Assembly (NCBI GenBank): GCA_023228245.1
Contig: JALOBN010000043.1
Span: forward strand, 1-20,763
Origin: Candidatus Pacearchaeota archaeon
GTDB lineage: Archaea > Nanoarchaeota > Nanoarchaeia > Pacearchaeales > GW2011-AR1
Length of the DNA: 20,763 nt
Direction: 5' to 3'
The position numbers and the translations under genes were made by a program. Below, piece by piece: positions 1 through 12,275 of this stretch (within the stretch, counting starts at the first letter, position 1; every line of letters starts with the position of its first letter). Below the pieces are notes generated by a model. The model was not told where the DNA came from, did not search any database, and was given only the letters and a program-made list of their open reading frames with translations.

Positions 1-269
1 TCGGGACCTCAGAGTGCTGGCTGTGGAAGGGCCCTTTCGCTTCTCACGGAGGCTACGGAGTATTCGCGGTAAGGCACCACTTGTTAACGGCTTCTAGGGT
101 TTCATGGATGATATCTAACGCAAGAGATATCCCACAAGGGCGCTGGGTCCTTCACACATGTGATACCCCCTCGTGCTGCAATCCCGATCACTTATATTTA
201 GGTGATCATGCAGACAACGTTCGTGATATGGTGGAGAGAGGAAGAGCACACAATGGCCAAGGACAGTGA
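1..269 (+). CDS. HNH endonuclease, 5' end outside the window
   Basis: The frame is open from the first bases with no start, so this is the C-terminal ~88 residues of a larger protein. It reads ECWLWKG near the start, then a G-G-Y-G-V-F strand, and ends with the core VLHTCDTPSCCNPDHLYLG followed by DNVRDMVERGR. This is the HNH_3-type (His-Me finger) layout: the His of VLH is the general base, the Cys residues likely hold a structural zinc, and N/H of CCNPDH complete the metal site. The family are free-standing homing-type DNA endonucleases, common in phages. About half of the residues match a second HNH gene at 6370-6780. Its last 17 bases overlap the next gene. The family call is firm; the target site is unknown. 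Confidence 0.9.
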   Translation, partial: GTSECWLWKGPFASHGGYGVFAVRHHLLTASRVSWMISNARDIPQGRWVLHTCDTPSCCNPDHLYLGDHADNVRDMVERGRAHNGQGQ

Positions 270-888
270 TTTACTCTCAGTCTCAGCGGCCGCTAAGCTT
301 GTAGGGCTACATCCGCCTCAGATATACAAGTACATCGAGAAAGAGGGACTGATTTCACATAAAGACAAAGAGGGACATACGAGGGTGATCCTCTCGGAGC
401 TAAAGGATTTCCTGGCCATCCGCAGCGCAACGCCCCGCGCGAGAGGAGGCTCCGCAACTAAACGGGCCCAAGACATCGAGTCCGTTAAGGAGTACGTAAC
501 GCCGTTCGTCAAACAACCTGTGCTAAGCCTGTGGGACCGAGGTTCTGACAAGGGATGGGCAGTTGCAGCAATCAAAGAGACTCCCGAGGTTCAGTACGAT
601 GCCGATGAGGACGGACGACGCAGCCAACGCCTAGTGACCTTCGATGTCGACTACGCTGACCATGATTTAGTCTGGGCTGATGCGCGCTTAATCGATGAGG
701 TCATCGCCGGTAAAATCATCGTTGCGGAGCCTCAGAGTGTACTGAGGATGCTGGCCGCTCAGCTCAAGATGTTTGACCCTGCTGAGCAGCCGCGTAATGT
801 CATTGATGCGCTCGAGGACATCGCTGTGCATCTCGACGAGTGGAAGAAACTAAGGATACAAAGTATCCAAAAAATCAAAGAAACCTAA
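253..888 (+). CDS. MerR/excisionase-like HTH DNA-binding protein
   Basis: A 211-residue protein. Residues ~6-50 read as a helix-turn-helix of the HTH_17/MerR-excisionase type: LLSVSAAAKLVGLHPPQIYK is the HTH, followed by a wing-like IEKEGLISHKDKEGHTRV. The C-terminal ~140 residues are unrecognised, mostly alpha/beta, and end in a helix (LEDIAVHLDEWKKL). The start at 253 is preferred because AGAGGAAG lies at good distance; an upstream ATG at 202 would add 17 implausible residues inside the HNH gene. It overlaps the HNH gene by 17 bases. Likely a phage regulator or DNA-architecture protein. It sits directly before a promoter flanked by a perfect 10-bp inverted repeat (909-950), so control of that promoter is a reasonable guess but only inference. 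Confidence 0.75.
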   Translation: MAKDSDLLSVSAAAKLVGLHPPQIYKYIEKEGLISHKDKEGHTRVILSELKDFLAIRSATPRARGGSATKRAQDIESVKEYVTPFVKQPVLSLWDRGSDKGWAVAAIKETPEVQYDADEDGRRSQRLVTFDVDYADHDLVWADARLIDEVIAGKIIVAEPQSVLRMLAAQLKMFDPAEQPRNVIDALEDIAVHLDEWKKLRIQSIQKIKET

Positions 889-1371: not shown

Positions 1372-2006
1372 ATAGCCGCGTGTTGGTCATCTGCTCACGT
1401 AGATACAACCAGCACCAACTTTGGGGTGCCCTCAATGTTATGTTGGAACGAGGGCACTCCTCTGAGGTTGTATCGACAGACTACATTATCCAAGACGAAG
1501 AGAGTCTCAGTCCGAACCGAATCTCCAGGACTTTAGACGACCTAAAGGACCTACAGGCTCTAACCGAGTCTTTCGACGCGCTCATGGTAATTTCGGGTAA
1601 CCACTACGACACTGAGTCTTACTGGTCCGATAAAAGGGCTCTAGCAATTGTAGATGCATTTGCGGCCCTGGAGCGTCCTATTGCGGCGATATGTGCTGCG
1701 GTCCCTACGATTCGAGGGGCCGCTGCGGGTAAGATAGTCAGTTACTTTCCTCTTATCCGGTCGAGGCAGTTGTTGCAAGACGCAGGAGCAATACTGAGTG
1801 GCTCGGTACTAACACGTGACCACAATATAGTTACAGCTGCCAACGAGATGATGACTGAAATATGGGCTGAGGAGTTCTGCAACTTGTTAGAGGGGCTACC
1901 ACAGGAGCACCATTTTGAGGACAGTGGGTTTGTACCTAAGGGCCGCCCTCGCAAGCCTATGCCCGAACTGGAGAGACTCAAGAGGTCTAAAACTGATAAA
2001 CATTAG
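1368..2006 (+). CDS. DJ-1/PfpI-like (class I amidotransferase-fold) protein
   Basis: 212 residues starting at GTG. The fold signature is clear: an N-terminal strand VLVIC, FDALMVISG in the middle, then the nucleophile elbow PIAAICAAVPT with Cys109, followed by GKIVSYFPL, LLQDAGAIL and the late strand-helix NIVTAANEMM. This order matches DJ-1/PfpI proteins, which include deglycases, chaperones and hydratases. Aligned by eye to human DJ-1, the Glu that normally tunes the cysteine is Gln17, and the DJ-1 His126 position is aromatic (Phe127), so activity may be altered. The last ~35 residues (KGRPRKP... LKRSKTDK) are a basic tail not typical of the family. It is coupled to the gene upstream. Function in the phage is unknown; metabolite repair or countering a host defence are possibilities. 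Confidence 0.75.
   Translation: MNSRVLVICSRRYNQHQLWGALNVMLERGHSSEVVSTDYIIQDEESLSPNRISRTLDDLKDLQALTESFDALMVISGNHYDTESYWSDKRALAIVDAFAALERPIAAICAAVPTIRGAAAGKIVSYFPLIRSRQLLQDAGAILSGSVLTRDHNIVTAANEMMTEIWAEEFCNLLEGLPQEHHFEDSGFVPKGRPRKPMPELERLKRSKTDKH
1459..1476 (+). repeat. 18-bp exact direct repeat, copy 1 (inside the DJ-1-like gene)
   Basis: CCTCTGAGGTTGTATCGA occurs here and again at 13101-13118 in non-coding DNA. The first eight bases contain the small dyad CCTC/GAGG. Flanks on both sides do not match. Confidence 0.9.
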
Positions 2007-2039
2007 GGGGTAGATTTTGCCCTCGTGACATACTATAAT
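2006..2039 (+). promoter_or_regulatory. Class B promoter: G-run box, 11-bp spacer, TATAAT
   Basis: GGGGG-TAGATT-TTGCCC (2006-2022) is followed by exactly 11 bp and TATAAT (2034-2039). The -10 lies within a near-perfect dyad (ACTATAAT-A-ATATTGTAGT region). It drives 2095-2358 and is the first of seven promoters of this class in the window. Confidence 0.75.
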
Positions 2040-2094
2040 AATATTGTAGTGTAGAGTACGGGGAACCTTAATAATCTAGCGGAAGGAGCTGATC

Positions 2095-2358
2095 ATGCCG
2101 TCAAATAGCTACCGAGTGCTCAATGAGGCCGACGTTGAACTCAATGAGCGAAACCGCATCAAGATCCAACTGTCCGAGAAAGTAGCCTCGGATCCTCCCA
2201 AGGTCGTCCTAAGCCTTAATAAGCAGTGGCTCGACCAGGAGGGCAAGTGGCAATGGGGCAAAGGATTCCAAGTGCCGGAAGAGCAGTCCATTGAGCTCTT
2301 GCAGCGAGTAGCGGAAGTGCTGGGATTGGAAGTTCGATTCTCATTAGACGATAGCTAG
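2095..2358 (+). CDS. Small protein, possibly PC4-like ssDNA-binding
   Basis: 87 residues, start supported by GGAAGGAG seven bases upstream. The run RIKIQLSEK...KVVLSLNKQWLDQEGKW, then W-G-K-G-F, then a C-terminal helix SIELLQRVAEVL, has the strand-strand-helix order and the lysine-rich 'K.. W.d..GkW..GKG' spacing seen in PC4/YdbC-type transcription coactivator domains that bind single-stranded DNA. This similarity is by eye and weak; an unrelated small beta-alpha protein is equally possible. It is a single-gene unit between its own class B promoter and the next promoter at 2362. If the PC4 reading holds, it could support phage transcription or replication. Confidence 0.7.
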   Translation: MPSNSYRVLNEADVELNERNRIKIQLSEKVASDPPKVVLSLNKQWLDQEGKWQWGKGFQVPEEQSIELLQRVAEVLGLEVRFSLDDS

Positions 2359-2361
2359 GCT

Positions 2362-2391
2362 CTGGTCTTCGATGACGAGCCAGGTTATAAT
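2362..2391 (+). promoter_or_regulatory. Class C promoter: CTGGTCTT, 16-bp spacer, TATAAT
   Basis: CTGGTCTT (2362-2369) is followed by 16 bp and TATAAT (2386-2391). The same word at the same distance precedes the late genes (13202-13231). It drives the HTH gene at 2433. Confidence 0.6.
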
Positions 2392-2432
2392 ATAAGTGTG
2401 CAGTCGCAGACTATGACAAGGAGAAAGTAGCT

Positions 2433-2807
2433 ATGCCAGACACAATGATCACCAGGGAAGAGCAGAACGCAGTCGAGCTGATTGAGGCCAACTTCATGGA
2501 CGTCAAGACCATGCAGAAGGAGCTGGGCATTACCAGCTATCAGTACGCTCGCACCTTGATCGTGGAAGATCGATTCGGACTCGGTTCCAGCGCAACCAGC
2601 TTGTTCGGCCGCACTCTCGTCCATCGCCAGGCCGTGGCCGCTGCGAAGTCTGCCCGCGAAGAGCGTGCTCAGAACGCAGAGGCCAACAAGGAAGCCAAGG
2701 CAGCCGCTAAGGCGGAAGCCAAGGAGGCCAAAAAGGCCGCGAAGAAGTCCAAGAAAGCCGTCGAGCCCGACGAGCCCGCCGAAGCCTTAGACGACCTGAT
2801 CAGCTAG
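2433..2807 (+). CDS. HTH paralog 1 with histone-H1-like Lys/Ala tail
   Basis: 124 residues. Residues ~7-75 form the domain shared with genes at 6953-7273 and 12045-12275: E-x-x-NAVELIEANFMDV, MQKELGITSYQYARTLIVEDRFGLG, then GRTLVHRQAVAAA. The SYQYAR segment is invariant in all three and sits where an HTH recognition helix would be. Residues ~80-112 are almost only Lys, Ala and Glu (AAAKAEAKEAKKAAKKSKKA), like H1 or Streptomyces HU C-terminal tails, which coat DNA non-specifically. It ends in an acidic LDDLIS motif also present in paralog 2. AAGGAG nine bases upstream supports the start. It has its own promoter and terminator. Likely a DNA-binding regulator or nucleoid protein; the target is unknown. 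Confidence 0.8.
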   Translation: MPDTMITREEQNAVELIEANFMDVKTMQKELGITSYQYARTLIVEDRFGLGSSATSLFGRTLVHRQAVAAAKSAREERAQNAEANKEAKAAAKAEAKEAKKAAKKSKKAVEPDEPAEALDDLIS

Positions 2808-2835
2808 ACCGTGTAGATTTCCCCCGTACTGCACC

Positions 2836-2872
2836 AAAGGAGCCACGTCCGTACGAGTGGCTCCTTTTGTTT
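2836..2872 (+). terminator. Rho-independent terminator
   Basis: AAAGGAGCCAC (2836-2846) pairs perfectly over 11 bp with GTGGCTCCTTT (2857-2867) across a 10-nt loop, followed by TGTTT. It ends the paralog 1 unit. Confidence 0.9.
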
Positions 2873-2887
2873 ACAAACTGAAGGTGA

Positions 2888-2916
2888 TTGTTTTACCCCA
2901 AAGGATATCATATAAT
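2888..2916 (+). promoter_or_regulatory. Promoter, host-like, TTGTTT / TATAAT, of the 11-gene operon
   Basis: TTGTTT (2888-2893), 17-bp spacer, TATAAT (2911-2916). The upstream AAGGTG-A-TTGTTTT repeats that of the promoter at 891. No other promoter is evident until 6848, so it should drive the genes from 2962 to 6283. Confidence 0.75.
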
Positions 2917-2961
2917 TATAATATGTGAAACGCAAACCTGAGCAGAAAGTGAGGCAACAAT

Positions 2962-3192
2962 GTGAACAACTTAGAGCTGGACCGTAAGATCCGCACATAC
3001 ATGGATAGCATTGTCAGCGAGTTCGTCGACCCTCGTACGGGCGAAGTCTCTCTGACAGAGCTAGCCGAAGAGGCATGTGAGGAGTTTGACCTCTACGAGG
3101 ATGGCAGCTCAATCCCAGAGGATTTATTCGAGGTGGCGTTCGAAATTGCGGATGACTACCACAAGACTCGCAAGGTGGGGAGGTACGCATGA
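2962..3192 (+). CDS. Acidic small protein, 76 aa, GTG start overlapping ATG-TGA
   Basis: I do not recognise it. It is strongly acidic and probably all-helical (LDRKIRTYMDSIVSEFV, LTELAEEACEEFDLYEDG, PEDLFEVAFEIADDYHKTRK). The leader AAAGTGAGG-CA-ACAATG is nearly identical to leaders at 7406 and 9519, where the ATG is the start. Here that ATG (2960) is followed at once by TGA, and the reading frame can only begin at the overlapping GTG (2962). This is either a start-stop device that lowers or couples translation, or a two-base change that shifted the start. First gene of the 11-gene operon; it overlaps the next by four bases (ATGA). Acidic size and charge are compatible with a DNA-mimic or inhibitor, unproven. 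Confidence 0.8.
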   Translation: MNNLELDRKIRTYMDSIVSEFVDPRTGEVSLTELAEEACEEFDLYEDGSSIPEDLFEVAFEIADDYHKTRKVGRYA

Positions 3193-3821
3193 GAATCAAA
3201 GTATCAAATCAAGGTATGATGGTTTTGGACCTAGGCAACACGATCGACCGTCTTACCGACAAGCAGTTTGCACACGGGGTGGCACTGGGCATGAGGCCGA
3301 TGTGGCGAACAGGGCACCCCACGATCATTTTCAGTCACAACGTTTGGAACGCTCTCAACGCCGCCGCTGGCATGGAGCACGACGAACTGGATTTCCAGCT
3401 GCCTCTGGATGACGAGGATAGCAAAGCCAGTGCCCTAGCCGAGCTGATGACTGAGTATCTCAGACGTTCGGGGTACCCTATGCTCCCAAGGGTTCCAACA
3501 ATGGCTGTAGGGTTGTGCCTCGAGTGGGGATGGTTCGAGCTGGTGAAGTCTCCGGTAGAGTTCGAAATATGGTTCAATGGCGAGCTTCACGGCACGACCT
3601 CAAATCCCAAGTGGGAACCGGGTCCTGGCATACATTTCCCAGGTGAGAAGCCTCTGTATGGCCAGTGCGTCGAGCTGGTTGACCCTGTTGCAGGCAAATC
3701 CCTAAAGATGTGGGATCGCTGGCACGGGGAGTGGCACCTTACCAACGAGGAGGAGTGGGATATCCGGCATGGGAACGTTGATGTGGCTGGAGGTAAGGAA
3801 GGCGACAATGAATTACCCTAA
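3189..3821 (+). CDS. Unknown early protein, 210 aa, WGW motif
   Basis: No family recognised. Notable segments: TIIFSHNVWNALNAAAG in the N-terminal third, a helix ASALAELMTEYLRRSG in the middle, then GLCLEWGWFELVKSP, and a C-terminal Trp-rich run MWDRWHGEWHLTNEEEW. The 'L-x-WGW-[FI]-[ED]-L' motif and the C-terminal W..W.H[LI] ending recur in the gene at 8867-9421 (LMLAWGWIDLYCDP; VWYNGSWHISG), which suggests the two are distant paralogs. The ATGA overlap with the upstream gene fixes the start. It overlaps the DUF1737-like gene by 14 bases. Probably soluble; no signal peptide or membrane span. Confidence 0.85.
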   Translation: MRIKVSNQGMMVLDLGNTIDRLTDKQFAHGVALGMRPMWRTGHPTIIFSHNVWNALNAAAGMEHDELDFQLPLDDEDSKASALAELMTEYLRRSGYPMLPRVPTMAVGLCLEWGWFELVKSPVEFEIWFNGELHGTTSNPKWEPGPGIHFPGEKPLYGQCVELVDPVAGKSLKMWDRWHGEWHLTNEEEWDIRHGNVDVAGGKEGDNELP

Positions 3822-4047
3822 GCGGTACAAGTTGGTGACTGCTGACACAATTGTCATCGACAAGCATGTTAGCGACCTTCTGGAGGAGGGCTGGGAGCTG
3901 TACGGTCAGCCCTTCTTGACAGGTATGACCAACGGTGTCTGGGGTCCTGTAGTTGCGCAGCCAATGATCCTGCGTGTTGACAACCCAGACTTTGTCAGCG
4001 GCCCTCCTGGGTGGGCAGAGCCTTGCAAGGAGGCCGACAATGACTAA
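3808..4047 (+). CDS. DUF1737-like small protein
   Basis: 79 residues. YKLVTADTIVIDKHVSDLLEEGWELYGQPFLTG follows the DUF1737 pattern (YKVVTA..., a helix, L..GW.l.G), ending in strands AQPMILRVDN where family members have a Q-A-hydrophobic strand. Members are ~60-80 residue proteins of unknown role, frequent in phages and bacteria. The start at 3808 has AAGGAAGG at normal distance; an upstream ATG at 3769 would lie deep inside the previous gene without a ribosome site. It overlaps the previous gene by 14 bases and the next by eight. The C-terminal ~15 residues are Pro/Gly/acidic and outside the domain. Confidence 0.75.
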   Translation: MNYPKRYKLVTADTIVIDKHVSDLLEEGWELYGQPFLTGMTNGVWGPVVAQPMILRVDNPDFVSGPPGWAEPCKEADND

Positions 4048-4525
4048 AAAGGTAGTCTGTCAGGAGTGCGGTGGACCAGTCGAGGGTATCTATGTGCTTC
4101 GTCGAGGGATCTGGAGACAGCCCATAGATGCCATTACCGGAGAGGGCAGGGACATGTGCCTCGACGATGTTGAGTGGGACGACATGGACTTCAATGAGAC
4201 CTCATGTGTCGATCATCCCACTCACGATTGCGGGGTGAGGCTCAACTACGAGTGGGACGGCGATGAGGATATGTACGAGGTTCAACGTCCCACCGTGTAC
4301 TCCATAGTTTTGACGGATCGGGGAATCGGAGCACTAACAGCTCTGGCCGGAGGTAATTACAATTGCTCCATGAGGACACTGCTGAGCATGATGCCTCTTG
4401 AGGCTCCTGGACCAAGCCTTGACGAGGCTACAGAGGCTATCCCTGAGAGCGACGCCATGCGCAACGCTTACAACACCGCAGTGTCTGAGAAATTTGTCCG
4501 AATCGTCACAGAGGAGGTTGACTAG
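4040..4525 (+). CDS. Cys-rich (zinc-ribbon-like) protein with LTDRG segment
   Basis: 161 residues with AAGGAGG seven bases upstream of ATG 4040. The N-terminus has C7-x2-C10-GG, further Cys at 40 and 56, and C-x7-C in SCVDHPTHDCG, consistent with one or two small zinc sites in the first 65 residues. A second part begins YSIVLTDRGIGALTAL (residues 87-101), the motif that opens several neighbouring early proteins (4525, 5083, 8867, 10845), so this looks like a zinc-binding head joined to that family's domain. The C-terminus is a helix (YNTAVSEKFVRIVTEE). Its stop overlaps the GTG of the next gene. Function unknown; such small zinc proteins often bind host proteins or nucleic acid. Confidence 0.8.
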   Translation: MTKKVVCQECGGPVEGIYVLRRGIWRQPIDAITGEGRDMCLDDVEWDDMDFNETSCVDHPTHDCGVRLNYEWDGDEDMYEVQRPTVYSIVLTDRGIGALTALAGGNYNCSMRTLLSMMPLEAPGPSLDEATEAIPESDAMRNAYNTAVSEKFVRIVTEEVD

Positions 4526-4812
4526 TGCAACTAAAAATGATAGTAACACCCGAGGGCCAACAGTACGCCGATATGCAACGGGTGGCAGAACGGTTCGACG
4601 ATACCACTGCAGAAGTGTTGTGGTTCCTTGAGGGATATGTGGTCACTATCCACAGCGGTCCGATGGCGTCGATTACCGATCTGTACGCCGCATACTGCCA
4701 ACGATTCGCAACCGAGCACCCAGGCGACTCACCTGTGCCTATTGACGCGTTTGCGGCAGCGATTGGGTCAGGGTTCATAGCTCTTGACCCATTAGATCCT
4801 CAAAGGAACTAG
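4525..4812 (+). CDS. LTxxG-family early protein, 95 aa
   Basis: Starts at GTG overlapping the previous TAG; GAGGAGG lies seven bases upstream. Layout: a strand with MIVTPEGQQY (residues 5-14), AEVLWFLEGY, then ITDLYAAYCQRF, then P-x-x-AFAAAIGSGFIALDPL. The same order (LTxxGxxY / ALWYxE / YxxY / F..F...G...) appears in the first ~95 residues of the gene at 10845 and, more loosely, in 5083-5370. The fold might be a winged-helix-like unit because 'LT..G' commonly marks the end of a helix before a wing in such domains, but here it sits at the N-terminus and this is only a guess. No known function. Confidence 0.8.
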   Translation: MQLKMIVTPEGQQYADMQRVAERFDDTTAEVLWFLEGYVVTIHSGPMASITDLYAAYCQRFATEHPGDSPVPIDAFAAAIGSGFIALDPLDPQRN

Positions 4813-4813
4813 T

Positions 4814-5086
4814 ATGAGACTAACTGAGGAAGAGGCACGCAACTGGCAACAGATCCTTGAGGAAGCCGATCGTCCGTTTGCAGAGGCCGAGAAGCGGCGC
4901 AAGGCTGAAGAGGCTCGGCTCAAGGACGAGGCCGAAGCACAGAGGATTGTCCGCAAAGGATGCCTAGCCACAGTTGTCATTCTCTTAACCATACCGTTAG
5001 GGCTGGTAGGTATCGTTATCACTACGTTCGTCAAGGCACTGAGTAGCACCCATAAGAAGTCACGTGGACCAAGGAGGCATCGATGA
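4814..5086 (+). CDS. Coiled-coil protein with one membrane span
   Basis: 90 residues. Residues ~1-48 are highly charged and helical (EEARNWQQILEEADRPFAEA, KRRKAEEARLKDEAEAQRIVRK), a good coiled coil. Residues ~50-73 are one hydrophobic span (CLATVVILLTIPLGLVGIVI). The C-terminal tail is basic (THKKSRGPRRHR). The order coil, span, short basic tail suggests a tail-anchored or single-pass inner-membrane protein; the basic tail would favour the cytoplasm under the positive-inside rule, implying the coil might face out unless insertion is reversed. CAAAGGAAC precedes the ATG. It may modify the host envelope or block superinfection; the sequence does not say. It overlaps the next gene by four bases (ATGA). 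Confidence 0.8.
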   Translation: MRLTEEEARNWQQILEEADRPFAEAEKRRKAEEARLKDEAEAQRIVRKGCLATVVILLTIPLGLVGIVITTFVKALSSTHKKSRGPRRHR

Positions 5087-5370
5087 TGACAAACAGGTTA
5101 ATCGCAACCGATCGAGGAATGGAATGGGTCGAGTCCCAACTCGATGGCGAGCCGGTACTTGACGAGGCCGTTGAGGTCATCCTCAGTCTGGACGAGTTGA
5201 GCAGCGACGTCACCTATGACCCGCTAGCTGAGGATGTGAATGACATCTACAAGAGGTACCAGGAGGAGTACCTGGGATCCTGTGATCCTGACCACCTCCC
5301 AACTTTTGAGACGTTCGTCAGGTGTTGGACTGAATGCTGGATCGCAGGGGAAGAGTTCGATGCGAGCTGA
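5083..5370 (+). CDS. LTxxG-family early protein, 95 aa
   Basis: Two adjacent ATGs (5083, 5086) follow AAGGAGG (5071-5077); the first overlaps the previous stop and either may be used. The protein opens RLIATDRGMEWVESQL, the family motif, then an acidic middle (VILSLDELSSDVTYDPLAEDV), then DIYKRYQEEYLGSCDPDHLP and TFETFVRCWTECWIAGEEF. This parallels 4525 and 10845 (Y..Y, then P..F..F......G). It overlaps the next gene by 11 bases. Overall charge is acidic. Function unknown; likely a host-takeover or regulatory protein because it sits in the early operon. Confidence 0.8.
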   Translation: MMTNRLIATDRGMEWVESQLDGEPVLDEAVEVILSLDELSSDVTYDPLAEDVNDIYKRYQEEYLGSCDPDHLPTFETFVRCWTECWIAGEEFDAS

Positions 5371-5527
5371 CCTGAAGGCTCTCCACGATCAGATGAAGGA
5401 GTTGCGTCGTCTGAGGGTAGCCCTGGTTGCACAGGGTAAGTGGGTGGAGGCCTCCAAACTCGAACCCGATTATCAGAGACTCCTCAGGGAGTACAACGAC
5501 ATTGTGAGGAAGGAGACTTTGCAATGA
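5360..5527 (+). CDS. Small helical protein, 55 aa
   Basis: Begins at ATG 5360 after AGGGGAAG. Reads as a pair of helices: RADLKALHDQMKELRRLRVALVAQ, then KWVEASKLEPDYQRLLREYNDIVRKE, with heptad-like Leu spacing. It resembles the short helical hairpins found in many phage early operons and could form a coiled-coil dimer. No family recognised. It overlaps the upstream gene by 11 bases and the next by four (ATGA), so it is clearly part of the operon. The longer open frame upstream (from 5240) is out of keeping with the neighbours and has no ribosome site. Confidence 0.8.
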   Translation: MRADLKALHDQMKELRRLRVALVAQGKWVEASKLEPDYQRLLREYNDIVRKETLQ

Positions 5528-5748
5528 CGGGCGATCCTTGGAAGGTACTAGCAGAGCAGGCCATTGTCAACCTTAGCTCGGTGGATACGTATCTGAGGCG
5601 TGCGTCAGAGATGCTCCAGCAAGGCGCTGACGAAGCTCCTGATCGTCCTGTCGAGAGGCTTCTTAACGAGTCCGGTGTAGAACTTGCACTCGTCCGGACC
5701 GAAATCAAATCAGTGCAGGAGAAACTAATCGGGAGGTTGCAGCAGTGA
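5524..5748 (+). CDS. Small helical protein, 74 aa
   Basis: AAGGAG eight bases before ATG 5524 fixes the start. Mostly helical with a central break: VLAEQAIVNLSSVDTYLRRASEMLQQ, then PVERLLNESGVELALVRTEIKSVQEKL. Not recognised. A helical hairpin that would form a coiled-coil bundle is likely, possibly working with the 55-residue helical protein encoded immediately upstream. It overlaps genes on both sides by four bases (ATGA and GTGA), a sign of translational coupling and matched amounts. Confidence 0.8.
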   Translation: MTGDPWKVLAEQAIVNLSSVDTYLRRASEMLQQGADEAPDRPVERLLNESGVELALVRTEIKSVQEKLIGRLQQ

Positions 5749-5972
5749 GACTTACACACGTTGCATGGGACTATGGAGCTGTTGACAGGGCTATGCACGA
5801 GGTGCTAGGGGACTCAGCCGACGTTGCGAAGCCGAAGACCACCCTCACCCTGTGCGGACGCCGCGTGAGCATTAACCTGATTGACAACGGTAACCCCATC
5901 TGCCAAGACTGCATCAAGGAGAAGCGTAAGGCAGAGATTGTGGAGAGGAAGCTGACCCAATGGATAGGCTAG
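5745..5972 (+). CDS. Small zinc-finger-like protein, 75 aa
   Basis: GTG start with GGGAGG nine bases upstream. Central pattern T-L-T-L-C-G-R-R-V ... P-I-C-Q-D-C-I-K-E-K: an LCGR turn followed ~20 residues later by CxxC and a basic helix. This 'TLCGR ... C..C' arrangement is typical of small actinobacterial and actinophage zinc proteins, with His5 or another residue as a possible fourth ligand. The remainder is a charged helix (KRKAEIVERKLTQW). Likely binds DNA, RNA or a host protein, not shown. It overlaps the membrane-protein gene that follows by 13 bases. Confidence 0.75.
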   Translation: MRLTHVAWDYGAVDRAMHEVLGDSADVAKPKTTLTLCGRRVSINLIDNGNPICQDCIKEKRKAEIVERKLTQWIG

Positions 5973-6283
5973 ATAAGAATGTGGGGTGCGGGATCTTGGC
6001 GATGTGTTTCTTTGTGCTGCTGGTAGTGCTGGCGGTGTTGATTGCGGCGTATCTCATACCATACTTGCCGCAGGTTCACCAAATTGTGGACACCACGTTG
6101 CCCGGTGCATATGAAAGCCCTCCCACCCCTGTGCATGATGTGTACGCCATTGATGTCGTTGGGGCGGATGGAGGGCAGACTACGCTGATAGAGGTTGAGG
6201 TACCGTGGTCGACCCACTCGCGAGCAGTGCTTGGATGGTATAGAGTCCCACTAACGTTGATGTTACCAGACGCTCTCCCGTAG
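5960..6283 (+). CDS. Single-span membrane protein, 107 aa
   Basis: ATG 5960 follows GAGAGGAAG at eight bases. Residues ~10-34 are strongly hydrophobic (CGILAMCFFVLLVVLAVLIA, then AYLIPYL), preceded by a short MDRLDKN, so a signal anchor or uncleaved signal peptide is likely. The C-terminal ~70 residues (VHQIVDTTLPGAYESPPTPV..., then strands VYAIDVVGADGGQTTLIEVEV) should lie outside the cytoplasm and look like a small beta domain. Last gene of the 11-gene operon before a terminator at 6309. It could be an envelope-directed early protein such as a superinfection-exclusion factor; nothing in the sequence proves this. Confidence 0.8.
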   Translation: MDRLDKNVGCGILAMCFFVLLVVLAVLIAAYLIPYLPQVHQIVDTTLPGAYESPPTPVHDVYAIDVVGADGGQTTLIEVEVPWSTHSRAVLGWYRVPLTLMLPDALP

Positions 6284-6308
6284 TACGGCGGGATCGAGCA
6301 ATACGATT

Positions 6309-6350
6309 GGGGAGAAGGGACTTTCACTCACTTTGGCCCTTCTCCCCTTT
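6309..6350 (+). terminator. Terminator hairpin before the second HNH gene
   Basis: GGGGAGAAGGG (6309-6319) pairs over 11 bp with CCCTTCTCCCC (6337-6347); a short TTT follows. The T-tract is weak, so partial read-through is possible, which would be the only evident way to transcribe the HNH gene. Confidence 0.8.
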
Positions 6351-6369
6351 CAATTCTTGGAGGTACGAC

Positions 6370-6780
6370 ATGAAGTCTATGACGGAAGAAGAGGCCAAAG
6401 CTGCTCGGCGGTTATATATGAAGGGCTACATGCGCGGAAAGCGCGTGCTAATTGACTTAGCCTCTGTGCTAGACGCCAGAGATAGATTTTGGTCACGTGT
6501 GAGACTGCCGAATGCTGTGGGCGTAGATGTTTGTTGGGAGTGGCAAGGAAGGGTTGACAAGGACGGCTACGGCGTAACGAGCGTAGCATTAACAGGCCAA
6601 CAATCCCACCGAATTGCATGGATACTATCTCACGAAAGATTGATACCTATCGGGATGCAAGTGCTGCATCGGTGTGATAATCCCTCTTGTTGTAACCCCT
6701 CGCACTTATTGTTAGGCACTCCGAAGGACAACGCTAGGGATCGTGACGTTAAGGGTCGAGATCGGTGGTCAAACCCTTAG
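6370..6780 (+). CDS. HNH homing-type endonuclease
   Basis: 136 residues from ATG 6370, with TTGGAGG seven bases upstream. Residues ~1-40 are a charged helical extension (MTEEEAKAARRLYMKGYMRG). The nuclease part runs VCWEWQG ... DGYGV ... SHRIAWILS ... VLHRCDNPSCCNPSHLLLG ... DNARDRDVKGR, the same HNH_3/His-Me finger layout as the partial gene at 1-269. Catalytic His of VLH, zinc-type Cys residues and the NPSH motif are all present, so it should be active. It lies between two terminators with no clear promoter, and interrupts the otherwise promoter-gene-terminator rhythm of the region, as expected for an inserted mobile nuclease gene. Target unknown. Confidence 0.92.
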   Translation: MKSMTEEEAKAARRLYMKGYMRGKRVLIDLASVLDARDRFWSRVRLPNAVGVDVCWEWQGRVDKDGYGVTSVALTGQQSHRIAWILSHERLIPIGMQVLHRCDNPSCCNPSHLLLGTPKDNARDRDVKGRDRWSNP

Positions 6781-6800
6781 GTCTTTCATTATATTATTAT

Positions 6801-6836
6801 AATAAGGGAGCCATGAGACGGCCTCCCTTATTTTTT
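6801..6836 (+). terminator. Rho-independent terminator
   Basis: AATAAGGGAG (6801-6810) pairs perfectly with CTCCCTTATT (6823-6832), then TTTT-GTTT. It ends the HNH gene. Confidence 0.9.
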
Positions 6837-6847
6837 GTTTAACTTTC

Positions 6848-6881
6848 GGGGGTAGATTTTGACCTTACGTCGTTCTATAAT
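6848..6881 (+). promoter_or_regulatory. Class B promoter of HTH paralog 2
   Basis: GGGGG-TAGATT-TTGACC (6848-6864), 11 bp, TATAAT (6876-6881). The -10 is within the dyad CTATAAT-AAA-ATCATAG. A ~65-base leader with AGGAG leads to the ATG at 6953. Confidence 0.78.
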
Positions 6882-6952
6882 AAAATCATAGTAGAGTGAG
6901 CAGGGAAGCAAGTGTGAGCTACCCTCAAGCACTTTAACAATAGGAGTCAGTG

Positions 6953-7273
6953 ATGGCGAACAAAAGTGATGGTAACAAGGTTGCGGATGCAGTTGCTCTG
7001 ATCGAGCGTGAGTATATGGATGTCAGCGAACTCCAGAAGACTCTCAACCTCAAGTCCTATCAGTACGCCAGGCAGATGCTGGTGCAGGACAGGTACGGCC
7101 TCGGCTCAACGTCCATCGAATGTATGGGACGCAAGCTGGTCAGTCGTGAGGCAGTAGCCAAAGCTCTGCAGATCCGTGAGGAGCATCGTCTCGAAGCCTC
7201 TCGGAAGGAAGCATCGGAGCCCCTGGACGAACTGATTGACGAGGCGTTCGACGAGCAGGTAGCCGCAGCCTAA
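6953..7273 (+). CDS. HTH paralog 2
   Basis: 106 residues. The shared domain covers residues ~8-75: VADAVALIEREYMDVSELQK, TLNLKSYQYARQMLVQDRYGLG, GRKLVSREAVAKALQIRE. It is nearer to the minus-strand paralog (12045-12275) than to the 2433 gene: both have LKSYQYARQ and LVSR-x-AV. The tail is acidic (LDELIDEAFDEQVAAA) and lacks the Lys/Ala run of paralog 1. ATG 6953 is preferred to GTG 6950 because AGGAG (6942-6946) is six bases away. Single-gene unit between its own class B promoter and a terminator. Likely a small DNA-binding regulator with a helix-turn-helix centred on LNLKSYQYAR; the operator is not known. Confidence 0.82.
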   Translation: MANKSDGNKVADAVALIEREYMDVSELQKTLNLKSYQYARQMLVQDRYGLGSTSIECMGRKLVSREAVAKALQIREEHRLEASRKEASEPLDELIDEAFDEQVAAA

Positions 7274-7299
7274 CCATCCAATCGCATAGTACTCCAAAC

Positions 7300-7336
7300 G
7301 AGAGCCTGTCACTGAGACAGGCTCTCATGGTTTTTA
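7300..7336 (+). terminator. Rho-independent terminator
   Basis: GAGAGCCTGTC (7300-7310) pairs over 11 bp with GACAGGCTCTC (7316-7326) across ACTGA; ATGGTTTTT follows. Confidence 0.92.
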
Positions 7337-7345
7337 GTTAGCGTT

Positions 7346-7380
7346 GGGGGGTAGATTTTGACCAAAGGCTGTACTATAAT
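7346..7380 (+). promoter_or_regulatory. Class B promoter
   Basis: GGGGGG-TAGATT-TTGACC (7346-7363), 11 bp, TATAAT (7375-7380), with the -10 flanked by GTAC on both sides (7371-7374 and 7391-7394). Drives the genes from 7420 to 9421. Confidence 0.78.
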
Positions 7381-7419
7381 AATTATATAACGTACAACTG
7401 AAACCAAAGTGAGGTCACA

Positions 7420-7662
7420 ATGAACAGACGTACCTTAGAACAATCAGCATATGAAGTCTTACGTAAGCACGGCTATCCCAAAGCAGTGGCAAGTGAGAGT
7501 GCCGTCGAGGTAGTGGCGTACGTAATCCACAACAGAGAGCTGGCCGAGAAGTACTTCGACGTGCACACTGCCTATGCGTTAGTCGAACGAGCTGCGGAAG
7601 CTGAGTGGGGTATCGAATATGTAGGTCATCGTCGCTACCCCAATAAGAACACCGAACTATGA
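7420..7662 (+). CDS. Unknown early protein, 80 aa
   Basis: The start has the conserved leader AAAGTGAGG-TC-ACAATG (7406-7422), shared with 2946 and 9519. Mostly helical: EQSAYEVLRKHGYPKAVASE, AVEVVAYVIHNRELAEKYFD, HTAYALVERAAEAEWG, then a short basic end (GHRRYPNKN). Not recognised. The HGYPKAVASESA turn between two helices could be a small HTH-like unit, but the match is weak. First gene of a six-gene operon; its TGA overlaps the next ATG. Confidence 0.8.
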   Translation: MNRRTLEQSAYEVLRKHGYPKAVASESAVEVVAYVIHNRELAEKYFDVHTAYALVERAAEAEWGIEYVGHRRYPNKNTEL

Positions 7663-8033
7663 ACGACAAACAGAAACTCGCCGAGCTGAAGAAGCTCCTA
7701 GACAGTATCCACGGTGCGGACAACGATGCAGATTACATTGAGGTAGAGTCCGCGTTAGACGACATGCATGCAATCCTCAGTGACAGTGTCAAGCTGAGTC
7801 GAGACAATGACTGCTTCATGCTTGGAAAGGCATGGCTGAGCTTTCGCATAGGCGACGTCGACATGGGCATCCATGTGCTACTGCCGACAACAGACGGACA
7901 CAACGAGCAGTTCATGAGCCTCTTTGACGAATTCGACAACTTGATCTGTCCAGAGGCATTAGAGTACTCAACGGTCCTGGCAGCTTGGGCTCGCGAACAA
8001 GGTTACGACTTCGATCCGGAAGAGTGCATGTAG
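7659..8033 (+). CDS. Unknown acidic early protein, 124 aa
   Basis: ATG overlaps the upstream stop (ATGA). The protein begins with a helix (KQKLAELKKLLDSIHG), then an acidic helix (DYIEVESALDDMHAILSDSV), then strands SFRIGDVDMGIHVLLPTT and a helix near the end (ALEYSTVLAAWAREQGYDF). Strongly acidic, no Cys-based metal site, no membrane span. No family recognised. A compact alpha/beta protein that could bind a host basic protein or enzyme is conceivable, but there is no direct sign. It is followed after 10 bases by a very small gene at 8044. Confidence 0.85.
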   Translation: MNDKQKLAELKKLLDSIHGADNDADYIEVESALDDMHAILSDSVKLSRDNDCFMLGKAWLSFRIGDVDMGIHVLLPTTDGHNEQFMSLFDEFDNLICPEALEYSTVLAAWAREQGYDFDPEECM

Positions 8034-8043
8034 GAGACGCGCG

Positions 8044-8184
8044 ATGAAATACTACAACAAGGTGGCGCCCGTTAAGGCGCCACCCAAATTCGACATTACT
8101 AACAGACCTACCCTTGAGGTATACATTGTCAATTATGTGGATCTCAAGGCTCTATCCGTCGGGAGGAAACGATGGCCAAGATAG
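8044..8184 (+). CDS. Very small protein, 46 aa
   Basis: Reads MKYYNKVAPVKAPPKFDITN then RPTLEVYIVNYVDLKALSVG and a basic end RKRWPR. TAGGAG lies seven bases before the ATG, and the stop overlaps the next start by 13 bases, the same style as other genes in this operon, which supports it being real. The codons for VAPVKAPP are formed by a perfect 9-bp hairpin (8061-8084), so either the peptide is real and the hairpin modulates its translation, or the hairpin is the feature and the frame is accidental. Basic and without known relatives; function unknown. Confidence 0.55.
   Translation: MKYYNKVAPVKAPPKFDITNRPTLEVYIVNYVDLKALSVGRKRWPR
8061..8084 (+). promoter_or_regulatory. Perfect GC hairpin inside the 46-aa gene
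   Basis: GGTGGCGCC (8061-8069), loop CGTTAA, GGCGCCACC (8076-8084). No T-run follows, so it is not a standard terminator. It may act as an mRNA stability element, a pause or attenuation site, or a protein-binding site between the upstream and downstream genes of the operon. Confidence 0.5.
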
Positions 8185-8444
8185 GTGACTACGTTAAGGC
8201 GGACGAAGTAGTCTGCCCTGAGTGCGGAGCCAAGCTGCGCTATAGACAGTACGTCTGTGGTTGGATGTACGAAGACCTCACAGACGAGGGACTCAAAGCG
8301 TCCACCGACTTCGATGGTGAGGATGTGGATGATGCTCAATTCGTCTGTCCTGAAGGCCACGAAGTACCGGATTGGCTCTTTGGTATTAACATGGAGCTGA
8401 ACAAGTATGTACGATTCTACAGCCAGGAGGCTTACTATGAATGA
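8172..8444 (+). CDS. Zinc-ribbon protein, 90 aa
   Basis: GGGAGG precedes ATG 8172. The N-terminal pattern VVCPECGAKLRYRQYVCG and the later FVCPEGHEVPDW give CPxCG ... CPxGH, a classic zinc ribbon with four ligands (three Cys and a Cys/His of the second knuckle). Between them is an acidic insert (YEDLTDEGLKASTDFDGEDV). The C-terminus (FGINMELNKYVRFYSQEAYYE) is aromatic. Small zinc ribbons of this kind bind nucleic acid or polymerase-associated proteins. It overlaps both neighbours, so it belongs to the operon starting at 7420. No closer family could be named. Confidence 0.8.
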   Translation: MAKIGDYVKADEVVCPECGAKLRYRQYVCGWMYEDLTDEGLKASTDFDGEDVDDAQFVCPEGHEVPDWLFGINMELNKYVRFYSQEAYYE

Positions 8445-8853
8445 GACTACGAGTCAATCGACTGACGAACTGGTCAATAGCCTTAAGCCTATTCCGTTCG
8501 ATCGTCACAAGCCTGTCGAGTACATCAAAGCGGTTGACGCGGAGCTGACTCGCATTAAGCCGTTGCTAGAGGCAGAGGGTTGGGTTGTTGACACCTCTAT
8601 CAATGTGCGGTTTTGTGAGGACTGGACAAATCTGTGGCCAGTGGACGATGAGACGATTCTCAACGGTGAGAACGATGTGCTGGTAGACGTTGGGTTTCGT
8701 CTCTGGGACAGGGTTTACGAGGCTCTCGACCTCCAGCACGAGATCATTGTGGCCTTCGTTATAATGATGTACCACGCAGACCCAAGACCCTCAGACTCGT
8801 TTCGAGAGGATGTTGAGGGTCTAACGTTCTTTACCATAAGCCATGATTCATAA
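8437..8853 (+). CDS. Unknown early protein, 138 aa
   Basis: Start at ATG 8437, six bases after AGGAGG. Segments: a helix PVEYIKAVDAELTRIKPLLEAEGW, strands VVDTSINVRFCEDW and DVLVDVGFRLWDRVYEALD, then an apolar helix HEIIVAFVIMMYHADP, and FTISHDS at the end. Probably a globular alpha/beta protein. The apolar stretch EIIVAFVIMM is too short and flanked by charges to be a confident membrane span. Not recognised. Stop is 14 bases before the next ATG, same operon. Confidence 0.82.
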   Translation: MNETTSQSTDELVNSLKPIPFDRHKPVEYIKAVDAELTRIKPLLEAEGWVVDTSINVRFCEDWTNLWPVDDETILNGENDVLVDVGFRLWDRVYEALDLQHEIIVAFVIMMYHADPRPSDSFREDVEGLTFFTISHDS

Positions 8854-8866
8854 AGGAGATGGAACA

Positions 8867-9421
8867 ATGAACTACAAACTTGAGTTGACGGACGAAGGGA
8901 AAGCTATCCGCAGGATGCTCACAGCCCTCAAGGTGTGGCATAGCAACAACAGAGAGTCTACCGACGAGGCAGATCCTCGTACAGAAGCCGTACACGTCAG
9001 CAACGTGTTGGCTGAGGCCGAGTGCGGTACCGTATTGAACACGGACCGTGAAGGTGCTATCCACATTATTTCCTGGAAGAGCAAGACGCCTGACCGCCTC
9101 ATCTATCTGATGCTTGCTTGGGGGTGGATTGACCTCTACTGCGATCCCACGACGGTGGAGATCGCTGACGCGTTTATGGTGTCGGGGTACCACGGACCTC
9201 ACGGAGTGTATGACGACGTTCGCACAGAGCGTGTCGCCTGGCTTATGGCACAGGAGTTGGAGGCTTACATCGGCAACGTCGCGAAGCGATCAGGTGTCAG
9301 ATGGCACTTTGAGTCAGCTAGGACGTCTGGCACAGGGAGGACGCTCGTAGCGGTACTCACTGCAGCTGGTGGACGGCATCGTCAGGTGTGGTATAACGGC
9401 AGCTGGCACATTAGCGGGTAA
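8867..9421 (+). CDS. LTxxG/WGW early protein, 184 aa
   Basis: ATG 8867 follows AAAGGAG. It opens YKLELTDEGKAIRRMLTALK, the motif shared by 4040, 4525, 5083 and 10845. In the middle, LIYLMLAWGWIDLYCDP matches GLCLEWGWFELVKSP of the gene at 3189, and the C-terminal VWYNGSWHISG echoes its W..W.HL ending, so this protein links two of the paralog groups seen in the region. A C-terminal helix-strand block (ERVAWLMAQELEAYIGNVAK ... TLVAVLTAAGG) is also present. No known function. Last gene of the unit, followed at 9431 by a terminator whose 3' arm is also the next promoter's G-run. Confidence 0.82.
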   Translation: MNYKLELTDEGKAIRRMLTALKVWHSNNRESTDEADPRTEAVHVSNVLAEAECGTVLNTDREGAIHIISWKSKTPDRLIYLMLAWGWIDLYCDPTTVEIADAFMVSGYHGPHGVYDDVRTERVAWLMAQELEAYIGNVAKRSGVRWHFESARTSGTGRTLVAVLTAAGGRHRQVWYNGSWHISG

Positions 9422-9430
9422 CCTCGGATG

Positions 9431-9470
9431 ACCCCCAGGCCAAAGACGAGGCAGCGTCTGGGGGTATTAA
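9431..9470 (+). terminator. Terminator sharing its 3' arm with a promoter box
   Basis: ACCCCCAG (9431-9438) pairs with CTGGGGGT (9458-9465), followed by ATTAATT. The GGGGGTATTAATT segment is at once the hairpin's 3' arm and the upstream part of the next class B promoter. Confidence 0.65.
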
Positions 9471-9493
9471 TTGACCTTACGACATAATATAAT
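9460..9493 (+). promoter_or_regulatory. Class B promoter
   Basis: GGGGG-TATTAA-TTGACC (9460-9476), 11 bp, TATAAT (9488-9493). Drives 9533-9829. Confidence 0.77.
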
Positions 9494-9532
9494 AATAGTA
9501 ACGATAGCAACCATATACAAAGTGAGGATACA

Positions 9533-9829
9533 ATGGCAGACAGAATCAATGAAGCTGGACGTAAGAGCCTGCACAAGGTGCTTGACAGGATGATCGACAG
9601 GTACAACAAGGAGGAGCCTCTTGAGGGGATGCTCTACATGCAGCTACAGGAGATCCGGACCCTTGAGAACGTCGAGAGAACGGTATCGCATAGCATCGTT
9701 GCATCATTGGAGGAGAGCAACGACGGTAGCCTAGAGGTAGAAAGCGCCTGGTTGGGTATTGAGGAGTGGGATGACCAGGATGATGGCAGCAACAAGGATG
9801 TTGATATCACCGAGGATGTTAACCTGTAG
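9533..9829 (+). CDS. Unknown acidic early protein, 98 aa
   Basis: The start has the conserved leader AAAGTGAGG-AT-ACAATG. Residues 1-65 are helical and basic-then-acidic (EAGRKSLHKVLDRMIDRYNK, LYMQLQEIRTLENVERTVSH), and the last third is extremely acidic (EEWDDQDDGSNKDVDITEDV). The acidic tail could mimic DNA or contact a basic partner; this is inference. Not recognised. A single-gene unit with its own class B promoter and a terminator after it (9860-9893), a layout repeated four times in this part of the window. Confidence 0.82.
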   Translation: MADRINEAGRKSLHKVLDRMIDRYNKEEPLEGMLYMQLQEIRTLENVERTVSHSIVASLEESNDGSLEVESAWLGIEEWDDQDDGSNKDVDITEDVNL

Positions 9830-9859
9830 GTAGTACCCTCAAGCTCACCAAAATGTACG

Positions 9860-9900
9860 ACCCCCAGGCATAAGTGTGACCTCGCTTGGGGGTATTATTT
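9860..9900 (+). terminator. Terminator sharing its 3' arm with a promoter box
   Basis: ACCCCCAGGC (9860-9869) pairs with GCTTGGGGGT (9884-9893; one G-T pair), then ATTATTT. As at 9431, the G-run is also the box of the following class B promoter. Confidence 0.7.
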
Positions 9901-9921
9901 GACCTCAGGGTGTTATATAAT
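9888..9921 (+). promoter_or_regulatory. Class B promoter
   Basis: GGGGG-TATTAT-TTGACC (9888-9904), 11 bp, TATAAT (9916-9921). The -10 lies in the dyad GTTATA ... TATAAC (9912-9932). Drives 9965-10273. Confidence 0.78.
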
Positions 9922-9964
9922 AATATTATAACAATCCACCTTAACAACCTTATAGGAGGTCGAA

Positions 9965-10273
9965 ATGAAGTGCGCAGTCTGTGGTAAACGTGTAGTGTTG
10001 GATGTCAAAATTGAAGGGACCCTGAGATTCGCACCCAACCGCAACGGACTGGGACCCATCAGAGCGTTCAAAGGTGAGACTGTATCAGTGTGGCAGAGGT
10101 GTATAGCAGATGCCTCACACAGTCAACCCAAGGAGATGGATAGGAGATACCTCGACAACTGGTTAGACGGACTCAATGAAGACTATCCAGAGTTGACGAT
10201 CGATGATCCGGACTTTGGTGAACACTCTGAGGGGTGGGAGCTAGGTGAAGCAACACCACCTACAGACGAGTAG
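9965..10273 (+). CDS. Cys-rich small protein, 102 aa
   Basis: TAGGAGG lies six bases before the ATG. Opens MKCAVCGKRVVLDVKIEG (CxxCG knuckle), with a further Cys and His in VWQRCIADASHSQP, a plausible Cys3His zinc site. The C-terminal half is acidic and rich in Asp/Glu/Pro (LNEDYPELTIDDPDFGEH, EGWELGEATPPTDE), probably flexible. It is the fourth small Cys-based protein in the early region (with 4040, 5745 and 8172). Single-gene unit. The exact partner or nucleic acid target is unknown. Confidence 0.82.
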   Translation: MKCAVCGKRVVLDVKIEGTLRFAPNRNGLGPIRAFKGETVSVWQRCIADASHSQPKEMDRRYLDNWLDGLNEDYPELTIDDPDFGEHSEGWELGEATPPTDE

Positions 10274-10279
10274 CAAGGA

Positions 10280-10310
10280 GATAGGGTAGCGACGAGCTAC
10301 CCTATCAGTT
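10280..10310 (+). terminator. Rho-independent terminator
   Basis: GATAGGGTAGC (10280-10290), loop GACGA, GCTACCCTATC (10296-10306): 11 perfect pairs, then AGTTTG, a weak T-tract. Confidence 0.85.
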
Positions 10311-10343
10311 TGTGGCTGCGAGGCGAAAGAAACGCGTCGCTAC

Positions 10344-10376
10344 GGGGTAGATATTAACCTTCGGATAGTATATAAT
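10344..10376 (+). promoter_or_regulatory. Class B promoter
   Basis: GGGG-TAGATA-TTAACC (10344-10359), 11 bp, TATAAT (10371-10376). GTATATA and TATATAC flank the -10 region, and the palindrome ATTAACGTTAAT lies just downstream. Drives 10417-10689. Confidence 0.75.
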
Positions 10377-10416
10377 ATAATTAACGTTAATATGTATATA
10401 CAGAAAGAGTTACAGA

Positions 10417-10689
10417 ATGAAGATCAAAGAAGTGAGAGACATACTGGAGCAGCTAGCAGAAGTCGAGCGTGATAGTGAAGATCGCGCATCGGATGCTGCA
10501 ATAGGGGTAGCTTGTTGCGACTACCTAGACGCGTTGGTGGCGTATTGGAAGACTGCCGGAGGTGAGTTACAACAAGATGGTAGCTACAAAATGGCACCTC
10601 CTGAGACGATGGGTGCTGCGCGAGCTGTCGTTGACGCGTCGCAAGACGCATTGGAGTCGACGATAGCAGACTGGCATATGAACCAGTAG
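10417..10689 (+). CDS. Helical early protein, 90 aa
   Basis: Starts MKIKEVRDILEQLAEVERDS, continues with helices AAIGVACCDYLDALVAYWKT and GAARAVVDASQDALESTIAD. Predicted all-alpha, weakly acidic. The ribosome site is poor (GAAAGAG), weaker than its neighbours. Not recognised. Single-gene unit between a class B promoter and the terminator at 10709. Confidence 0.8.
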   Translation: MKIKEVRDILEQLAEVERDSEDRASDAAIGVACCDYLDALVAYWKTAGGELQQDGSYKMAPPETMGAARAVVDASQDALESTIADWHMNQ

Positions 10690-10708
10690 TAGTTGTAGTT
10701 ACGAGAGT

Positions 10709-10737
10709 AGAGTAGCACGTTGCTACTCTTTCTCTTT
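10709..10737 (+). terminator. Rho-independent terminator
   Basis: AGAGTAGC (10709-10716), loop ACGTT, GCTACTCT (10722-10729), then TTCTCTTT. Confidence 0.85.
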
Positions 10738-10769
10738 GCACCGTCATGTCGGAAGAAACGATCGCATCC

Positions 10770-10803
10770 GGGGGTAGTAATTGACCGAGGGATATTATAT
10801 AAT
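10770..10803 (+). promoter_or_regulatory. Class B promoter, with a possible second -10 downstream
   Basis: GGGGG-TAGTAA-TTGACC (10770-10786), 11 bp, TATAAT (10798-10803). A second TATAAT at 10826-10831, with TTAACG 12 bp before it, may be a tandem start. Drives 10845-11399. Confidence 0.75.
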
Positions 10804-10844
10804 ATAATTAACGACCGAAGTATATTATAATAAAGGAGCCTAAA

Positions 10845-11970: not shown

Positions 11971-11981
11971 ATAATACATAA

Positions 11982-12044: not shown

Positions 12045-12275
12045 TTACAATCCCTTACTCTTACGAATTTCTAACGCTCGCTGTACCGCATTTCTACTCA
12101 CTAATGTACGTCCTGTTAATTCAATCGTGTTATTTCCTAACTCATATCGATTCGTTTGAATGAACTGCCTCGCATATTGATATGATTTGAGTTTGAGTAT
12201 TTCCTGCATCTCACTTACTGTCATATAGTTATCTTCAATCAGCTTAACTGCGTTCTTAACTTCAGTCTTATCCAT
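12045..12275 (-). CDS. HTH paralog 3, A+T-rich
   Basis: 76 residues and nothing but the shared domain: VKNAVKLIEDNYMTVSEMQE, ILKLKSYQYARQFIQTNRYELG, GRTLVSRNAVQRALEIRKS. SYQYAR is identical to the copies at 2433 and 6953; it is closest to the latter. Codons are strongly A/T-ending, unlike the other two copies, and the ribosome site AAAAAAGGAG six bases before the ATG is of low-G+C style. The opposite strand, own upstream promoter, terminator and base composition all say it arrived as an independent cassette (a moron-like unit). Likely a DNA-binding regulator, possibly controlling the same sites as its paralogs. Confidence 0.85.
   Translation of the reverse strand: MDKTEVKNAVKLIEDNYMTVSEMQEILKLKSYQYARQFIQTNRYELGNNTIELTGRTLVSRNAVQRALEIRKSKGL

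Follow-up and report, generated by a model that had tools for sequence, protein, structure and literature searches.

In the middle promoters of phage T4, a MotA box lies 12±1 base pairs (bp) from a good -10 element, in place of the -35 element, and MotA acts there together with AsiA (PMC2988021). Promoters controlled by PhoB are likewise described as lacking a canonical -35 element (PMC4496699), and two reports have the PhoB site substituting for the missing element and contacting sigma region 4 (PMC4496699, PMC3973317). Here we describe seven sites in contig JALOBN010000043.1 (assembly GCA_023228245.1; 20,763 bases, 52% G+C, hereafter the window) in which a perfect TATAAT stands at a constant distance downstream of a 17-bp box, GGGGGTA-N4-TTGACC, and we ask how these boxed promoters compare with the T4 and PhoB arrangements.

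Sequence anatomy of the boxed promoters

Aligned on TATAAT, the seven sites gave the consensus C-N5-GGGGTA-N4-TT[G/A][A/C]CC-N4-G-N6-TATAATA, and each was followed by an open reading frame (ORF) whose start codon lay 45-77 nucleotides (nt) from the TATAAT (Table 1). A sequence-only reading of this DNA had listed all seven, describing a G-run and a constant 11-bp gap between a TTGACC-like hexamer and the TATAAT. Every site was found where that reading had put it, and the gap was exactly 11 bp at 7/7 sites, with TT..CC-N11-TATAAT occurring seven times on the plus strand and never on the minus strand. The G-run was also present at each site, although its length differs (six G at 7346, four at 10344) and at one site the first of the five G is replaced by a C. 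TTGCCC (2017) and TTAACC (10354) stand in for TTGACC at two of the sites.

The exact string TTGACC-N11-TATAAT had five matches, against none in 100 dinucleotide shuffles, and GGGGTA stood at the same distance before TATAAT seven times in the window, while in 100 dinucleotide shuffles of the plus strand no 6-mer shared a common offset from TATAAT more than twice. When each site was scored with a position weight matrix (PWM) built from the others, the seven reached 34-48 bits and the next best site in the window 19.1. The core pattern GGGGTA....TT..CC was found seven times on the plus strand and not at all on the minus strand, and none of the seven exact boxes lacked a TATAAT 11 bp downstream. 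Copies of the box with up to three mismatches numbered 21, which is near background (14.6 expected; 4 of 100 shuffles reached 21). In all, 7 of the window's 33 TATAATs, counted on both strands, carry the box. Separately, GGTAGATTTT at 11960-11969 matches the left part of the box, has no TATAAT at the usual distance and adjoins an inverted repeat.

Table 1. Coordinates of the boxed promoters and candidate regulator genes in the window
Feature	Coordinates	Strand	Details
Boxed promoter 1	2006..2046	+	Box 2006-2022 (TTGCCC variant); -10 TATAAT 2034-2039; predicted +1 2046; before ORF 2095-2358 (87 amino acids)
Boxed promoter 2	6848..6888	+	Box 6848-6864; -10 6876-6881; predicted +1 6888; before winged-helix paralogue ORF 6953-7273
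Boxed promoter 3	7346..7387	+	Box 7347-7363, extra G at 7346; -10 7375-7380; predicted +1 7387; before ORF 7420-7662
Boxed promoter 4	9460..9500	+	Box 9460-9476; -10 9488-9493; predicted +1 9500; before ORF 9533-9829; G-run is 3' arm of predicted hairpin
Boxed promoter 5	9888..9928	+	Box 9888-9904; -10 9916-9921; predicted +1 9928; before ORF 9965-10273; G-run overlaps terminator-like hairpin 9879-9893
Boxed promoter 6	10344..10383	+	Box 10344-10359 (TTAACC variant, four G); -10 10371-10376; overlapping second TATAAT 10376; predicted +1 10383; before ORF 10417-10689
Boxed promoter 7	10770..10810	+	Box 10770-10786; -10 10798-10803; overlapping second TATAAT 10803 (TTGACC-16-TATAAT); predicted +1 10810; before ORF 10845-11399
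Candidate regulator, HTH_17 (AlpA/MerR-like) domain protein	253..888	+	211 amino acids, start codon ATG 253; 54-81% identical to five relatives
Candidate regulator, long member of winged-helix paralogue trio	2433..2807	+	Downstream of the box-less promoter at 2386 (TGGTCT-17-TATAAT)
Candidate regulator, short member of winged-helix trio	6953..7273	+	Downstream of boxed promoter 2; winged-helix fold predicted, mean predicted local distance difference test score 76.8
Third member of winged-helix trio	12045..12275	-	Inside AT-rich island, opposite strand

Conservation among the seven sites followed the motif closely. Counting positions from the first T of TATAAT (the index), the conserved block ran from -33 to about +15, and 19 of 50 columns were invariant, including an upstream C and a spacer G that the sequence-only reading had overlooked. 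Mean pairwise identity was 0.96 in GGGGGTA, 0.90 in TTGACC and 1.0 in TATAAT; it was 0.45 in the N4 stretch, 0.46 in the spacer and 0.25-0.29 upstream of the block, and from index +6 to +16 it was 0.60, falling to 0.23 just after. Since the box and TATAAT have been kept while N4, spacer and flanks have diverged, the pattern points to constraint and the sites are not simply fresh copies of one another. The G-run at 9460 and 9888 has a second possible reason for being kept, because it is part of a predicted hairpin there.

We also compared the -35 region of the boxed sites with that of other promoters in the window. The hexamers 17 bp from TATAAT at the boxed sites were TAGATT (three times), TATTAA, TATTAT, TAGATA and TAGTAA, matching the -35 consensus at 1-4 of 6 positions. 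A T[T/G]G at 17-18 bp was absent from all seven, while it was present at 6 of 13 other plus-strand TATAATs and at 0 of 13 minus-strand ones. Six box-less promoters chosen by position (918, 2386, 2911, 13226, 16936 and 20725, the last without an ORF in view) all carried T[T/G]G at one of these two distances, a pattern that we spotted only after inspection and whose strength should not be overstated. The seven other plus-strand TATAATs lacking it were 2917, 6798, 8760, 10376, 10803, 10826 and 14585; two of them, 10376 and 10803, overlap boxed -10 hexamers, and a TTGACC stands 16 bp from the latter. One boxed site, at 10371, also has a fair -35 hexamer, TAGATA, at 17 bp (4/6). Because the box-less promoters are also weak in this region, a weak -35 element alone is not diagnostic.

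A possible replacement of the -35 element by the box

These features, namely the anatomy, the fixed spacing and a -35 region without T[T/G]G at 17-18 bp, are direct observations. We put about an even chance on the explanation that the -35 contact is taken over by a DNA-binding protein seated on the box; the boxed sites would then be a phage-specific promoter class. Under this proposal, the host's RNA polymerase, carrying its primary sigma factor, would recognize the perfect TATAAT at -12 to -7 and start at a pyrimidine-purine step 6 nt downstream of it, while the box, at about -40 to -24, would be bound by a protein in place of the -35 contact. That protein, presumably encoded by the phage, would recruit or reposition sigma region 4 and so activate transcription, and seven small transcription units would be switched on together. 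The fixed 11-bp spacing is more readily expected of an activator, since a protein that touches polymerase needs such spacing and a steric repressor does not, though a repressor might keep it too. A sigma-remodelling partner, which the sequence-only reading had allowed for, is purely conjectural; PhoB-type activators are described as replacing a missing -35 element without one (PMC4496699).

Should the first TATAAT serve as the -10 element, the boxed sites would work like a T4 middle or a PhoB promoter. As in T4, the -10 is an excellent sigma-70 hexamer (TATAAT at 7/7 sites), and, provided that this hexamer is the one used, the box lies within the 12±1 bp given for T4 (PMC2988021). However, the spacing here is fixed at 11 bp, there is far less variation, and the box is a different and longer one, GGGGGTA-N4-TTGACC as opposed to WWWTGCTTtA, with no GCTT core. 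The T4 comparison drawn by the sequence-only reading is partly supported, by a box in the -35 place, its fixed distance to a perfect -10, the missing T[T/G]G and a start signature, overlooked in that reading, that fits the first TATAAT. We do not class the sites as T4 middle promoters, because the MotA consensus is absent and none of the 30 window proteins, drawn from about 20.8 kb of genome in view, matched the MotA or AsiA family at E≤0.1. As a yardstick, bases 1-50000 of T4 contain 15 TGCTT no more than 45 bp ahead of a TATAAT, and for 6 of these TGCTTNN lay at 11-13 bp. The T4 enrichment is weak, with GCTTT at -18 in 4 of 103 cases, no more often than unrelated 5-mers that tie with it, and the signal at the boxed sites is much stronger. 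The pho box is a direct repeat of 7-4-7 bp that ends about 10 bp before the -10. Our box shares that overall layout, but GGGGGTA and TTGACCT are not direct repeats, and a Pfam scan of the 30 window proteins revealed no response regulator.

Takeover of polymerase by a box that replaces the -35 element is best worked out for T4. If our proposal is right, an unrelated phage, perhaps with an actinobacterial host, would have reached a T4-like solution by means of another box and another protein, and its seven near-identical promoters would offer a clean test set for bypass of sigma region 4. If the sites are instead ordinary promoters or repressor targets, they would amount to a regulon motif of a new phage, of modest interest.

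Competing explanations

Several observations weigh against a box that replaces the -35 element. No activator for the boxed promoters was identified among the 30 window proteins, the site at 10371 has the fair -35 hexamer described above, and the box-less promoters have weak -35 hexamers too (at most 3/6 at 15-19 bp). Moreover, TTGACC itself matches the -35 consensus at 5/6 positions, and a consensus scan found a second -10-like hexamer 16-17 bp from TTGACC or TTAACC at six of the seven sites. The earlier statement that TTGACC cannot be a -35 element was therefore too strong, and the boxed sites could instead be ordinary sigma-70 promoters, with TTGACC as the -35 and, as the -10, an AT-rich hexamer (TAATAT, TAAAAT, TATAAT and so on) that overlaps TATAAT at its end. 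The scan gave matches of 11/12 at 10781, 10/12 at 6859 and 10354, and 9/12 at 7358, 9471 and 9899. The second hexamer averages 4.3/6 to TATAAT in boxed sites versus 3.3/6 in the six box-less controls; two of these second hexamers are themselves perfect TATAATs, at 16 bp from a TTGACC or a TTAACC, and promoter 7 is the best case for this explanation. Yet the scan does not pick up site 2017, the first hexamer is invariant at 7/7 while two sites have TAATTA and TAATAG as the second, the AT-rich stretch after TATAAT is present in box-less promoters too, and the conserved GGGGGTA is left without explanation. The start signature disagrees as well: a pyrimidine-purine step stands at index 12, 12 bases after the first T, in 7/7 boxed and 4/6 box-less promoters (background 25%, local 31%), but at index 17, where the second hexamer would predict it, in only 4/7 and 1/6, and identity has dropped to 0.23 from index 16. 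(The step at index 6 is also 7/7, merely because TATAATA contains TA.) Ordinary sigma-70 or sigma-A promoters resemble these sites in having both a TATAAT and a TTGACC hexamer, but here the two are 11 bp apart, and 16-18 bp is reached only through the second, less conserved hexamer. We favor the first TATAAT as the -10, because it is invariant, the index-12 step is found at 7/7 sites and conservation ends at about +16, and we consider the ordinary sigma-70 explanation unlikely.

The box could also be an operator, covering the -35 region of seven promoters that host polymerase otherwise uses mainly via TATAAT, for a phage repressor or other negative regulator. In cluster A mycobacteriophages one repressor binds many asymmetric sites, promoter operators included (PMC9283540), and these operators and stoperators resemble our box in being a short asymmetric site repeated through a phage genome in one orientation to transcription. 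The weak -35 hexamers of the box-less promoters, which suggest that a strong one may be dispensable, would suit this explanation, as would a short dyad, GGT-N8-ACC, within six of the seven boxes. But the dyad is just 3+3 bp and occurs at five further plus-strand places with no TATAAT at that distance, and the T[T/G]G of the box-less set is missing from the boxed set. Every exact box is at a promoter with one spacing, a constancy that a steric repressor does not need, and none is intergenic without a -10; sites away from a -10 or at varying distance, a trait of operators and stoperators that simple operators need not show, were 0/7. No immunity repressor was identified in the window, and we regard repression through the box as doubtful. 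Far more improbable is that a promoter cassette was copied within the genome and owes its conservation to recent descent alone, the copies having no regulator in common. Descent could keep the same spacing, and some pairs are more alike than others, with extra positions in common between 2034 and 6876 (0.61 of variable columns), 9488 and 10798 (0.61), and 10371 and 10798 (0.58); yet the variable columns and flanks are down to 0.23-0.46 identity while the 19 invariant columns persist.

Candidate regulators, other promoters, and genomic context

The winged-helix trio and the HTH_17 protein (Table 1) are no more than candidates for binding the box. In a more specific version of our proposal, a small winged-helix (BldC/Xis/MerR-like) protein made from box-less promoters would dock host sigma-A polymerase at GGGGGTA-N4-TTGACC, with no relative of MotA or AsiA, and would drive a second wave of seven small units in a phage unrelated to T4; we see this as possible, though rather speculative.

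Box-less promoters 918 and 2911 (887-923 and 2881-2916) share AAGGTG-N-TTGTTTT-N-CC upstream of TATAAT. Their common element, AAACCTAAGGTGCTTGTTTTGCC and AAACTGAAGGTGATTGTTTTACC, respectively, scores 13, a value that a draw of about 20,000 random pairs never attained. Similarly, 2386 and 13226 share AGGC-CTGGTCTT (score 10.5; P is 0.00035 for a single pair and about 0.005 for 15 pairs together), with CTGGTCTT 16 bp before TATAAT at 2362-2391, ahead of the winged-helix gene, and at 13202-13231, ahead of the ORF at 13252 beside the terminase genes; this second group therefore includes the promoter just before 13252-14011. Given these shared elements, there may be three promoter groups in the window, alike in their -10 and distinguished by what lies upstream of it.

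Small plus-strand ORFs predominate up to about 11.4 kb, and the terminase large subunit lies at 14016-15437. The label "early" that had been given to the boxed promoters would follow from their position and small genes. Among named phages, the terminase was closest to those of Thermobifida phage P1312 (45.5%) and Streptomyces phage Dagobah (46.2%), and in IMG/VR identity was at most 49% (48 loci). Since the best named matches are actinophages, at about 46% identity, the host may be actinobacterial.

Relatives with a similar promoter set were sought in several collections. The window had no megablast match in 50,697 named phage records. Scans for the box-promoter pattern in IMG/VR (1, 13 and 19 stretches) and in GTDB genomes (12 stretches) gave one match per stretch and never two, and a PWM scan of 194 loci gave a best score of 26.1 bits, with at most one match of at least 16 bits per locus. 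The best-scoring of the pattern matches (28.9 bits) sits inside an ORF and was rejected, and a 14-base pattern hit at least 119 stretches, too loose to use, although its loci were covered by the PWM scan. No comparable promoter set was found in the IMG/VR loci of terminase relatives longer than 8 kb that we examined, and phiC31 offers just two TATAAT-like sites (eight -10-like forms), hence no comparison. For the HTH_17 protein, neither IMG/VR nor GTDB genomes yielded relatives, and IMG/VR yielded none for the winged-helix family or for the major structural protein (19139-20638). The literature searched, which covers part of the field, contained no earlier report of the boxed promoter.

The window has other features of note. 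The leaders at 2943-2961, 7404-7422 and 9517-9535 have AAAGTGAGG-N2-3-ACAATG in common, at or just before the start codon. An AT-rich island at 12000-12650 (G+C 0.34 and 0.23 in two 300-base bins, versus about 0.5-0.63 to its left) carries the minus-strand winged-helix paralogue, and a 20-mer containing ATGCACAGGGTG is repeated at 85% at 11621-11640 and 12711-12730, in stretches without an assigned gene. Structured RNA was considered for 11400-13300 and rejected: the predicted folds of two stretches there gained nothing over shuffled sequence (z 0.71 and -0.15); Rfam gave no match at gathering score in the window, and sub-threshold matches were weak and at chance level. A DJ-1/PfpI family protein is encoded at 1368-2006 (41 bits, cut-off 26.6), for which named phages gave no match. 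An HNH endonuclease lies at 6370-6780 (HNH_3, 47.2 bits), and the ORF at 81-269, near the window start, resembles by eye the end of another.

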